Of a DNA stretch of 64,000 nt, positions 15,314-46,871 are shown piece by piece. The stretch is from Bacillus sp. HSf4 (GTDB lineage Bacteria > Bacillota > Bacilli > Bacillales > Bacillaceae), in assembly GCF_029537375.1 (NCBI RefSeq), contig NZ_CP120679.1:167501-231500 (forward strand), written 5' to 3'. The notes beneath the pieces were generated by a model. The model saw nothing but the letters and a program-made list of their open reading frames with translations. It was not told the origin of the DNA and did no database searches. Every line of letters begins with the position of its first letter. The first letter of the stretch is position 1. Position numbers and translations under genes: made by a program.

Positions 15314-15394
15314 TTCTTTTTTGGACAGAAGAGGAAGGCATGCTAAAGGCGCAACGTCCTGTTACAACGCATGCACTTGTACGTCCTGTACTTC

Positions 15395-22061: not shown

Positions 22062-22245
22062 TTTTTGATAGTTATAGCGCCCGGACTAAGCGTACGGATG
22101 ACAAAGCTTAGTTGACGAGGATGGAGGTTATCGAAGTATTCGGCGGATGCCTCCCGGCTGACCTCAAAGATCACAGCCGCAAGGATTTCCTCAAACCAAA
22201 GAGGCGACTCTTTGAACAAAGGGAAATCGCATGATCTTCCAACAA
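22062..22245 (+). ncRNA. glmS ribozyme (glucosamine-6-phosphate riboswitch)
   Basis: The conserved core TAGCGCCCGGACTAAG begins at 22075, followed by GTTGACGAGGATGGAGGTTATCGA and GCGGATGCCTCCCGGCTG. By comparison with known glmS ribozymes, self-cleavage should occur between A22076 and G22077. Glucosamine-6-phosphate is the cofactor, and cleavage leads to mRNA decay, so glmS is shut down when its product is abundant. The ends of the interval are approximate. Confidence 0.95.
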
Positions 22246-42558: not shown

Positions 42559-43929
42559 GTGGCGAAGGAAGAACTGAAGCGGGGCCTGGGAGCGCGTCAT
42601 ATTCAGATGATCGCTTTAGGCGGCACAATCGGTGTTGGTTTATTTATGGGATCAGCCAGCACGATTCAGTGGACAGGCCCGTCCGTCCTGCTTGCTTATG
42701 CAATCTGCGGGATTTTTATCTTTTTTATTATGCGTGCAATGGGAGAAATGTTGTATGTCGAGCCCAGCACAGGCTCATTTGCGACATTCGGCCATCAATA
42801 TATACATCCGCTTGCAGGGTATATGACCGCATGGAGCAACTGGTTTCAGTGGGTCATTGTCGGGATGAGCGAGATTATCGCCGTCGGTGAATACATGCAG
42901 TACTGGTTTCCGGATCTGCCTGCCTGGATACCGGGCATCATCGCGATGGCGATTCTTGGAGGAGCCAATCTGATTTCCGTGAAGTCATTCGGCGAATTTG
43001 AATTTTGGTTTGCCATGATTAAAATTGTCACGATCATCCTCATGATTATCGCCGGACTGGGGATTATTTTCTTCGGTTTCGGCAATGACGGACAAGCGAT
43101 CGGTTTGTCCAATCTCTGGTCGCACGGCGGTTTCTTTGCAGGCGGCTTCTCAGGCTTTTTCTTTGCGTTGTCTCTTGTGATCGCGGCTTATCAGGGAGTG
43201 GAGCTGATCGGCATTACTGCCGGCGAAGCAAAAGATCCGCAAAACACGCTAAAGAATGCGATTCAAAGCATCATCTGGCGGATTTTGATTTTTTACATTG
43301 GTGCCATCTTTGTGATTGTTACGGTGTACCCTTGGGATGAACTCAATTCGATCGGAAGCCCGTTTGTATCAACATTCGCGAAAATCGGCATTACCGCGGC
43401 AGCCGGAATCATTAACTTTGTCGTGATTACGGCGGCTATGTCAGGCTGCAACAGCGGGATTTTCAGCGCGGGCCGCATGCTTTACACATTGGGTGTAAAC
43501 GGGCAGGCGCCGAAGTTCTTTACGAAGATTTCCCGAAATGGCGTGCCGTTGTACGGTACGATTGCCGTTTTGATCGGCCTGGCCGTCGGTGTCGTGTTAA
43601 ATTATATTGCACCGCCTAAGATCTTTGTGTACGTATACAGTGCGAGTGTTCTCCCGGGGATGATCCCGTGGTTTGTCATTCTGCTCAGCCATATTGGATT
43701 CAGAAAGGCGAAAGGAGCGGAACTCGACAGTCATCCGTTCAAAATGCCTTTCGCTCCTGTGACAAACTATGTGACGATCGCCTTCTTATTGATGGTGTTG
43801 GTCGGCATGTGGTTTAACGATGACACGCGGGTGTCTTTGATTGTCGGAATCATTTTTCTGGCGGTTGTGGCTGTCAGCTACTATGTGTTTAGGATCGGAA
43901 AGCGTTCCTCGACAGATGTGCAAAAATGA
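42559..43929 (+). CDS. Amino acid permease (APC superfamily, AapA/AlaP type)
   Basis: The 456-residue protein has 12 predicted helices and begins with the AAT-family signature [40 protein letters not shown] and [20 protein letters not shown] are typical of the alanine/neutral amino acid permeases AapA, AlaP (YtnA) and relatives in B. subtilis. The substrate within this group cannot be settled. It starts at GTG 42559 after AGAGGAGG. It has its own promoter, a long leader and a possible CodY site, and converges with the DUF5667-like gene across a repeated element. Confidence 0.92.
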
Positions 43930-44177: not shown

Positions 44178-45392
44178 TTACTCTTCGTCTTCTTTTTCTT
44201 TTTCCTTAAGTGCCTTTTCTTCTCTTTTCTTGGCTTCTTCCCGCTGTTTTTCAGCGCGTTTTTCTGCTTCTTCGCGTTGTTTCTCTTGAGCTTTTCTAGC
44301 TTGTTCTTCTTTTTTCTTGGCTTCCTCCCGCTGCTTTTCAGCGCGTTTTTGCGCTTCTTCGCGCTGTTTCTCTTGAGCCTTTCTAGCTTGTTCTTCTTTT
44401 TTCTTAGCTTCTTCCCGCTGCTTTTCTTCTTGTTTTTTCAACGCTTCCCGTTGTTTTACTTCTGCATTCGTACGCGCATCTTTTTTATCTTCATCATCTG
44501 TTTTATTGTCGGAGTCTTCTTTATCCTCTTCATCTGCTTTACTGTCAGACTCCTCTTTTTCGTCTTTAACCGCTTCTGCCGTTTCTTCGTTGATTTCTTC
44601 AGCAGCATCGGCTTGTTCTTCTGCCAGCTCTTTATTCAATTCAAGAAGTTCCTCATTGTACTCTTTTTCATCCATTTCACCGGACGCCAGTTTTTCTTCA
44701 AGTTCGGCGCGTTTTTCCTCAGCCTTTTGCTCGATTTTCGCTAATTTTTTGTTGAGTTTCTTTTCTAACTTCTCTTGTGCTTTGACGATATTTTTTTGCA
44801 GCGCTTTTTTTGCTTCCGGATTGTTGATTTGATTTAACACGTTTTGCAGCGCGAGGATGTTAGAAGAAAATTGTTCTTCAAGCTGGTCAGATGTATCTTC
44901 TTGTTTGTCACCATCATCCATTGGTTCGGATTGCTCGTATTTTTCCAGTGCTTCCTCTTGAAGCTCAACGGCCTCTTCAAGAATGTCACGGGCTAATTCT
45001 TCCTGACCTTCCGCAAGCAGCGCCTCTGCTTCTTTGATGCGTTCTTCAGCGAAAAACGCCAGCAATTCAGCCTCTTTCACTTCATCAAAGGCCAGGGCCA
45101 GCTGGACATTTTCCATGAGTCTTTTTGAGAAATAGAAGAAATCATCAGGCAGAAGTGAAGGTATGTCCTCATCATTTACAGATGTTGATTGTTCGGTATC
45201 CGCTTCATCTGTGTTTTTCGTTTCTTCGGCCTCATTTTCATTTGTGTCTTGTTGAACGGTTTCTTCTTCTTGTCCGTCAGATTGGTTGTCCTGCTCTTCT
45301 GCAAAAGCTTGTCCGGTTCCAAATACAAAAGCGAGAAGTGCGGCGGCAAAACCGGTCGAAACAATCATGCGGCCTTTTTTGAATAACGACAT
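44178..45392 (-). CDS. Secreted DUF5667-like coiled-coil protein
   Basis: The 404-residue protein has a signal peptide ending AFA before EEQDNQ, an acidic linker, a DUF5667-like helical domain (about 80-150; PDDFFYFSKRLMENVQLALAF then AELLAFFAEERIKEAEALL) and a very long charged coiled coil. The C-terminus carries a 29-residue repeat twice (REEAKKKEEQARKAQEKQRE...), encoded by two 87-bp units at 44247-44333 and 44334-44420. I start at ATG 45392, after GGAGGGA, because this gives the signal peptide. A c-di-GMP-I type riboswitch lies in the leader, pointing to a role on the cell surface or in the matrix. Confidence 0.85.
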   Translation of the reverse strand: MSLFKKGRMIVSTGFAAALLAFVFGTGQAFAEEQDNQSDGQEEETVQQDTNENEAEETKNTDEADTEQSTSVNDEDIPSLLPDDFFYFSKRLMENVQLALAFDEVKEAELLAFFAEERIKEAEALLAEGQEELARDILEEAVELQEEALEKYEQSEPMDDGDKQEDTSDQLEEQFSSNILALQNVLNQINNPEAKKALQKNIVKAQEKLEKKLNKKLAKIEQKAEEKRAELEEKLASGEMDEKEYNEELLELNKELAEEQADAAEEINEETAEAVKDEKEESDSKADEEDKEDSDNKTDDEDKKDARTNAEVKQREALKKQEEKQREEAKKKEEQARKAQEKQREEAQKRAEKQREEAKKKEEQARKAQEKQREEAEKRAEKQREEAKKREEKALKEKEKEDEE

Positions 45393-45426
45393 AAAAAAAT
45401 CCCTCCAAAACAAAGTTTTTGTAAAG

Positions 45427-45477
45427 GAAGAATCGCTGAATCCACTCTGTAAAAACGGAGTGTTGACCCGATTCTTC
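45427..45477 (-). promoter_or_regulatory. Expression platform hairpin of the riboswitch
   Basis: GAAGAATCG and CGATTCTTC are perfect 9-bp arms enclosing an inner CACTC/GAGTG stem. The hairpin begins directly after the aptamer and ends 34 bp before the ATG. The following CTTTAC is a weak T-run, so whether it controls termination or translation is open. Confidence 0.6.
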
Positions 45478-45562
45478 ATTTGGCAGCCCAGCCACCGTAG
45501 TGAATACACCGTAGGTCTGTGACTTTGCGCCTCTATTTTTCAATAGATTTGCCTTTTTCAAA
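45478..45562 (-). ncRNA. c-di-GMP-I (GEMM) type riboswitch aptamer
   Basis: Reading the minus strand, GGCAAATCTATT-GAAA-AATAG is the P2 hairpin with a GAAA tetraloop, followed by GGCGCAAAGTCACAGACCTA, a P3 hairpin, and TACGGTGGCTGGGCTGCC. These are the conserved segments of GEMM-I: GGCAAA, tetraloop, GCAAAG, the receptor and the closing UGCC that pairs with GGCA. Known members bind c-di-GMP, and a few bind cGAMP. It lies about 90 bp upstream of the DUF5667-like gene. Confidence 0.85.
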
Positions 45563-45875
45563 AGAGAACGGTTCATTTGGTTAAATCGTTCAACTTTATC
45601 AAAATGAGTATACATTAAAAAAAGATGGAGGAATAGGATTAATTATTTATATATTTGTAATTTTCTGTTTAATAGAATTATTTACCTTCTTTTGTATGAT
45701 AGAAAATCAGTGAAGACGCGGGCAGCCAGAGAGGGATTTTGATCAATCGAGTTTCTTCAATTCTGTCACATAACCCGGTGACAAATTACGGTCAACTGAC
45801 GGCCGTTTGCAAAAGCTGAACATGCTACAATCGTATTGAAAGCGGAAACATTTAAATATCGGGAGGTCTGCCAAG

Positions 45876-46871
45876 ATGAAAGCACTTGTAGTTGAAGCAC
45901 CGTTTCAAGCGGTGGTAAAAGAGGTGCCATATCCATCACCGGGTCCGAAAGATGTTGTAATTAAAGTTGAAAACATCGGAATATGCGGAACCGATATTCA
46001 TATTTTCAAAGGTGAGTTTCTGTCACCTTATCCGATTATTCCTGGGCATGAATTTTCCGGAACGGTATATGAAACAGGCCAGGACGTGACTAATGTAAAA
46101 ATTGGTGATCGTGTGACAGCTGATCCGTCTTTGTTTTGCGGTGAGTGTGATTATTGTTTAACAAACCGCGGCAACCAATGCAGCAATTGGGGAGCCCTTG
46201 GGAATACAACAGATGGAAGCATGGCCGAGTATGTAAAAGTGCCGAGCCGAAATGTCGTGAAGCTCCCTGATACAATGAGCTTTGAGGAAGGTGCCTTTAT
46301 TGAGCCGATGGCTTGTGTTGTACATGGGATGAATCGGCTCAATCTCCAAGTTGGTGACCGGGTTATTCTGTTTGGCGCAGGGGCGATGGGGCAGCAGTTG
46401 ATTCAGTCGTTAAAAATGGCGGGTGCTTCAGAACTTGTGGTTGTCGACATCTCTCAAGAGAAACTCGACATGGCGCTGAAGTGGGGCGCGACAAAAGGTG
46501 TGCTGAGCGAAGATCTTAGACCTGAGGAATTTCCGACCGGATTTGATGTCGTGGTTGATGCCACTGGAATTCCTGCCGTGATCGAAAATGCCTTTCAGTT
46601 TATGGGGAAAACAGCGACATATCTGCAGTTCGGTGTGACGGCGCAAAATGAGTCGGTACGCCTTGATCCCTTTAAGCTGTACAACAATGACTGGACGATT
46701 TTAGGATCGATGGCCATTAATTATACATTTTTACCAGCGTTCCATTGGGTGAAAGAAAAGCGGATTGAGGTGGAGCATTTGATCTCGCAAAAGCTTACGT
46801 TGGAAGAAGCGGTCGGCTTTTTAAGAGGACCGAGAAGCTCTGATTTGTTTAAAGTTCAGATTAAGATGTGA
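45876..46871 (+). CDS. Zinc-dependent polyol/alcohol dehydrogenase (MDR family)
   Basis: This 331-residue medium-chain dehydrogenase has catalytic zinc ligands Cys37, His58 and Glu59 (ICGTD, PGHEF) and the structural zinc set Cys88, Cys91, Cys94 and Cys102. LFGAGAMGQQLIQ is the NAD(P) phosphate loop. It groups by eye with sorbitol, arabitol and galactitol-1-phosphate dehydrogenases, and the PTS regulator and permease genes downstream suggest a polyol or polyol-phosphate substrate. CGGGAGG precedes the ATG. The regulator gene starts 175 bp downstream, perhaps from its own promoter. Confidence 0.87.
   Translation: MKALVVEAPFQAVVKEVPYPSPGPKDVVIKVENIGICGTDIHIFKGEFLSPYPIIPGHEFSGTVYETGQDVTNVKIGDRVTADPSLFCGECDYCLTNRGNQCSNWGALGNTTDGSMAEYVKVPSRNVVKLPDTMSFEEGAFIEPMACVVHGMNRLNLQVGDRVILFGAGAMGQQLIQSLKMAGASELVVVDISQEKLDMALKWGATKGVLSEDLRPEEFPTGFDVVVDATGIPAVIENAFQFMGKTATYLQFGVTAQNESVRLDPFKLYNNDWTILGSMAINYTFLPAFHWVKEKRIEVEHLISQKLTLEEAVGFLRGPRSSDLFKVQIKM

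Follow-up and report, generated by a model that had tools for sequence, protein, structure and literature searches.

A c-di-GMP-I riboswitch precedes a DUF5667 gene in Bacillus sp. HSf4 and recurs in Bacillales, with a predicted two-hairpin OFF switch

Two c-di-GMP riboswitches located before adhesion genes, Bc2 of B. thuringiensis and Vc1 of V. cholerae, are described as ON switches, with Bc2 acting on the collagen adhesion protein gene cap by anti-termination and Vc1 positively regulating gbpA (PMC4933901; PMC4744006). As a c-di-GMP-I element before a surface or secreted protein in a Bacillus (PMC4933901), Bc2 resembles the locus presented here. Another c-di-GMP-I riboswitch of B. thuringiensis, Bc1, is reported to exert both transcriptional and translational control, however, it has two separate terminators in a long platform, whereas in the present leader one short hairpin would serve both purposes (PMC11218506). 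In B. methanolicus, c-di-GMP riboswitches are described as preceding two genes of unknown function (PMC4342826). Neither a link of a c-di-GMP riboswitch to DUF5667 nor the word DUF5667 itself was found in the mostly open-access literature searched; as far as that search reaches, the pairing is unreported. The riboswitch class is known, and what is new is the target family together with a predicted ribosome-site hairpin followed by a U-run.

The window analyzed here is a stretch of 64,000 nucleotides of Bacillus sp. HSf4 (contig NZ_CP120679.1, positions 167,501 to 231,500), to which coordinates refer unless stated otherwise. A first-pass annotation had placed a c-di-GMP-I (GEMM-I) riboswitch on the minus strand in front of a secreted, DUF5667-like protein. 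The covariance model bears out this class, with a match to the full length of RF01051 (positions 1-87 of 87) that scores well above the Rfam gathering score of 35 (E = 1.2e-13 for the 64-kb window):

45479..45563, minus strand: c-di-GMP-I aptamer (RF01051, 78.1 bits) with Vc2-equivalent contact bases

The aptamer lies in the 5' leader on the gene's own strand, 86 bases from the start codon, and its alignment includes the GAAA-capped hairpin. By our own mapping on the Rfam alignment, the bases equivalent to the Vc2 contacts G20, A47, and C92 are G, A, and C, with C92 mapped to the first C of GCC; the correspondence of these contact positions follows a published account (PMC11218506). Judged by sequence, the identity of the aptamer is as good as certain. 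While it resembles its class in length, score, loop, and contact positions, it differs in a platform that would join ribosome-site masking with a T-run, and in a DUF5667 target that was not found in print. The genome holds two c-di-GMP-I aptamers, the window copy included. The other (L003 2040-2126, C1:435039-435125, 74.3 bits) precedes a long frame that by inspection resembles a lipopeptide NRPS; a c-di-GMP-I target before lchAA is known. Synthesis and degradation of the ligand are plausible in this organism given three GGDEF and two EAL matches in the genome.

The downstream gene stands alone on its strand, between an amino-acid permease (42559-43929) and a zinc-type dehydrogenase (45876-46871) that are both encoded on the opposite strand:

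44178..45392, minus strand: gene of a DUF5667 protein of 404 aa (PF18915, 73.2 bits against a cut-off of 27)
44823..45155, minus strand: DUF5667 domain, residues 80-190 (Pfam match)
45300..45392, minus strand: signal-peptide-like N-terminus, residues 1-31 (inspection of the translation)

The DUF5667 assignment is supported, and a signal peptide ending near residue 31 is probable by inspection, in agreement with the earlier annotation; the product is probably secreted. Behind its signal-peptide-like start the protein consists of the DUF5667 domain and charged helices, with mostly helix predicted from residue 85 onward. DUF5667 was the only family above its Pfam cut-off in the window protein and in eight of nine aptamer-linked proteins scanned, the ninth (L030) having no match in that scan, though the genome search found DUF5667 there. 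The family profile had no match among PDB sequences at E <=1. An AlphaFold model of middling quality (mean pLDDT 71.5, pTM 0.38) gave 401 Foldseek matches at E <=10 and none at E <=0.001, and many among the matches listed were designed or other helical proteins. A function from the fold was rejected on this uninformative outcome. It had also been proposed that the protein would fit an adhesion or matrix role, however, no adhesin domain or fold was found in Pfam, among PDB sequences, or by Foldseek at E 0.001.

Between the aptamer and the start codon, as well as upstream of the aptamer, the leader contains the following elements:

45469..45477, minus strand: arm A, GAAGAATCG, directly 3' of the aptamer, able to pair with arm B (hairpin H2)
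45427..45435, minus strand: arm B, CGATTCTTC, located in the sequence as the 3' arm of the earlier-noted hairpin H2
45426..45433, minus strand: anti-Shine-Dalgarno ATTCTTCC, overlapping arm B and complementary to GGAGGGAT with G-U pairs
45401..45406, minus strand: Shine-Dalgarno GGAGGG, predicted 3' arm of a competing hairpin H3
45393..45399, minus strand: T7 run between Shine-Dalgarno and start codon, a possible terminator U-tract
45564..45572, minus strand: strand upstream of the aptamer that by complementarity could extend the closing helix into arm A
45566..45591, minus strand: 5' hairpin GAACG ... CGTTC before the aptamer, arms located

The hairpin with 9-bp arms noted previously is present; when the 86-base spacer was shuffled 2000 times by mononucleotide, a perfect 9-bp inverted repeat arose in 17 cases. 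Because its 3' arm runs into the CC of ATTCTTCC, complementary to the ribosome site, H2 appears to be part of a switch and not an isolated stem. By complementarity it is one of two competing hairpins, the anti-Shine-Dalgarno being able to pair alternatively with GGAGGGAT, and a hairpin that has the Shine-Dalgarno as its 3' arm and is followed by a U-run is found at 45393-45433. The predicted minimum-energy structure of segment 45478-45381 contains H2, with some weak pairing remaining in part of the ribosome site. The upstream strand of the window differs from the pattern common to related leaders. H2 was also considered as a terminator and rejected, the T-run being absent after 45427. The 5' hairpin could protect the 5' end or make a third competing helix. 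Upstream of it, TGTATACT at 45607-45614 on the minus strand is an extended -10-like element recognized by eye, which the promoter scan did not list.

From this anatomy we propose that the single DUF5667 gene downstream is under the control of a canonical c-di-GMP-I riboswitch, which would act by way of two hairpins that exclude each other. In the ligand-free state, arm A would pair with arm B to form H2, keeping arm B off the ribosome site and leaving the gene ON. With c-di-GMP, the aptamer's closing helix, together with the extension of that helix, would capture arm A, arm B would then pair with the Shine-Dalgarno in H3, and the hidden ribosome site would turn the gene OFF; with the T7 run behind it, H3 could possibly end transcription as well. 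We assign this two-hairpin OFF switch, as the whole explanation, a probability of roughly 0.55.

The connection between aptamer and gene is firmer by recurrence than the single locus of the first-pass annotation could make it. In 299 genomes drawn from the order Bacillales, c-di-GMP-I was detected in 266 and DUF5667 over its cut-off in 100. The survey loci comprised the 141 listed DUF5667 matches over cut-off plus two same-genus orthologues, and matches to a covariance model built from 15 aptamers came from 30 of 91 and 14 of 52 sources. This amounts to 44 of 141 loci with an aptamer upstream on the same strand, neither same-genus orthologue among them. As six of the 15 training aptamers derive from linked loci, Rfam provides the independent test, and its gathering score was reached by all 44 linked aptamers (39 for RF01051 and five for RF03167). 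The latter class, c-di-GMP-I-GGC, belongs to the same Rfam clan and is the best match at L031, L058, L078, L116, and L123, whereas the window aptamer is plain RF01051. By eye, the frame downstream on the aptamer strand looks DUF5667-like in all 44 cases, which by our own tally are spread over 41 genomes and 16 families. A hand estimate for 2.5-Mb genomes with 14 sites each puts the chance expectation at about 0.4 among 141 loci, and most surveyed genomes show fewer c-di-GMP-I sites than the 14 assumed, a number that equals the maximum scored for any one genome. Additionally, a scan of named genomes with an alignment of window-type proteins returned 41 loci, 25 of them with an aptamer, in Metabacillus, Oceanobacillus, Mesobacillus, Planococcus, Lysinibacillus, and others. 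The pairing of aptamer and DUF5667 is therefore recurrent in many related bacteria.

The distance from aptamer to gene is 516-603 bases at eight of the 44 loci (L120, L149, L152, L156, L163, L168, L169, and L170). At least six of these (L149, L152, L156, L163, L169, and L170), and perhaps L120 and L168, have an operon form in which the aptamer is followed by a lipoprotein-like frame of roughly 150 codons and then by a divergent DUF5667 gene. Matches to the preQ1 riboswitch also occur near two DUF5667 loci (L063 62-106 minus; L076 91-135 minus).

Leaders of the window type were compared after the 44 and 25 aptamer-bearing loci had been pooled and five duplicates removed, giving a set of 34 that consists of all 20 remaining named leaders and 14 of the 44 survey leaders. 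Aligned from 5' to 3', they contain the 5' hairpin, the aptamer, arm A (TGAAGAATGGAGAA or similar), an inner hairpin, arm B (ATTCTTCC), the Shine-Dalgarno, in most cases a T-run, and the start. The mean predicted energies of H2 and H3 are -13.9 and -9.7 kcal/mol. The 14 survey leaders had been chosen by eye for the ATTCTTCC/GGAGG pattern, which biases the comparisons that follow toward H2 and H3. Own arms beat swapped arms in 28 of 34 leaders for H2 and in 27 of 34 for H3; for the 5' hairpin, the arms are co-adapted by the same measure in 25 of 34. Predicted openness of the Shine-Dalgarno core averages 0.20 when arm A is present, 0.02 when it is removed, and 0.066 when its sequence is shuffled, and the shift has the expected direction in 34/34 leaders upon removal and in 31/34 upon shuffling. 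For the window, predicted openness is 0.18 when arm A is present and 0.00 when it is removed, and the full leader gives 0.37. By comparison across leaders, the two-hairpin platform is well supported as a candidate switch. The gain from arm A, however, is predicted to exceed 0.3 in only seven of the 34, and mean predicted openness in full leaders is only 0.12; H3 is thus predicted to dominate even in the ligand-free RNA unless folding is under kinetic control, and with H3 stronger at equilibrium an open state would require that H2 form before it.

The step that would connect the ligand to the hairpins is the capture of arm A. In 19 of the 34 leaders arm A begins within the last aptamer bases, and in 25 of 34 the pairing between the upstream strand and arm A is stronger than that of shuffled strands. 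For the extended closing helix, no covariation was found among these leaders, and the own strand was better than a swapped one in only 17 of 34. This ligand-linked helix, lacking covariation support in the window, leaves room for the opposite sign, in which c-di-GMP binding would favor the open form and the protein would be made in the sessile state, as the precedents of Bc2 and Vc1 might suggest. We regard such an ON switch as unlikely. Bc2 is described as ON by anti-termination (PMC4933901), while the anatomy of the window suggests OFF. Arm A is needed for the open form, yet it overlaps the last aptamer bases in the 19 leaders mentioned above, and a closed aptamer should therefore compete with that form.

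Leaders of other types bear on the same question. Among 15 non-window-type leaders with a terminator, the predicted effect of the aptamer 3' strand on terminator pairing was strong in six, pairing falling from 0.68-0.99 without the strand to 0.00-0.02 with it (L063, L076, L082, L093, L095, and L132); the first five are close relatives from one family. The fall was from 0.74 to 0.56 in L145 and L147, and in the remaining seven of 15 the strand had little or no effect. In the L063-type and L132 leaders, the aptamer 3' strand would thus compete with a classic terminator, serving as the antiterminator, which is the same OFF logic; this speaks against an ON switch and lends partial support to the two-hairpin OFF switch. 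If the ligand-bound aptamer takes arm A, H3 would form and the gene would be OFF, and from this anatomy we predict with moderate confidence that c-di-GMP turns the gene off. Repression of this kind would run counter to the needs of a matrix protein that is induced in the sessile state, and any role of the protein in motility or attachment is inferred.

The T-run was visible during the assembly of the 34 leaders, though it was not a selection criterion. Within the 10 bases that precede the start, a run of at least five T is present in 28 of 34 window-type leaders (16/20 named and 12/14 survey), in three of 93 DUF5667 genes lacking an aptamer (counted after removal of near-identical starts and with automatically assigned start codons), and in none of 30 aptamer-linked leaders of other types. 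The median anti-Shine-Dalgarno score is 7.5 for linked genes, a set partly chosen on the motif, against 5.0 for unlinked ones, some of which also score high. The specificity of the T-run suggests that H3 may mask the ribosome site and also act as a terminator. Our own terminator finder, applied to fixed-length leaders independently of the start codon, found H3 terminator-like in 16 of 34 leaders, that of the window not being one of them, and H3 was not among the terminators found by a scan of the window. Taken together, termination at H3 is weakly suggested. A purely translational mechanism, in which the role of H3 is confined to masking the ribosome site and the T7 run serves as a favorable spacer and no terminator, is possible, although we place it below even odds: it is consistent with the modest mean energy of the H3 stem, with the window scan, and with the six of 34 window-type leaders whose T-run is shorter than five, but the T-run tracks the platform, which a plain spacer preference is not expected to do.

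Within the genus, the protein was found in only three of 37 genomes searched, the other two being B. changyiensis (L028/L176) and Bacillus sp. WMMC1349 (L029/L179), with 61-62% identity. In both, a distance of about 3 kb separates the gene from the same permease, with which it is convergent, and an aptamer was looked for at the two loci and not found. A tree of 142 domains, built without L162 because that locus yielded no domain, requires 17 changes of the riboswitch label, and well-supported branches force at least seven of these; the tree is rough, with few columns and long branches, and gain and loss are not separable on it. Gain, loss, or both have accordingly been repeated, and a single origin of the pairing was rejected on this tree. 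A phage origin of the leader was likewise rejected, as the leader had no match in phage records. The aptamer might also bind c-di-GMP without any bearing on expression in this organism, as is reported for Bc1 of B. thuringiensis, which binds the ligand while expression is unchanged (PMC11218506). The absence of the aptamer from the two orthologues and the unusual upstream strand of the window would fit this, however, the window preserves the aptamer, the contact-base positions, the two competing hairpins, and the T7 run, and many genera share the arrangement, and we find a silent aptamer quite improbable.

In a broader reading, secreted DUF5667 proteins would be a widespread and, as far as searched, unreported c-di-GMP output in Bacillales, repressed via several differently built platforms, in one of which the ribosome site is the 3' arm of a hairpin and the spacer its U-tract, such that one structure could halt transcription as well as translation; we consider this broader proposal evenly balanced. 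The pairing with the riboswitch offers a functional handle on a family of unknown function, as its expression is expected to track c-di-GMP; by the predicted sign, the DUF5667 protein would belong to the low-c-di-GMP state. The compact leader design, with the ribosome site doubling as a hairpin arm before a U-run, is testable in B. subtilis, and a natural comparison is provided by the orthologues that neighbor the same permease gene, some carrying the riboswitch and others lacking it.

Regarding the surroundings of the locus, a search of 20 further genomes in the genus gave no match at E 1e-100 to the dehydrogenase at 45876-46871 on the plus strand, and 19 of 20 had a match at 1e-180 to the permease on the other side. 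Elsewhere in the window, a glmS ribozyme (22065-22238, plus strand) and a Bacillaceae-1 RNA among tRNA genes (15327-15392, plus strand) are ordinary features.
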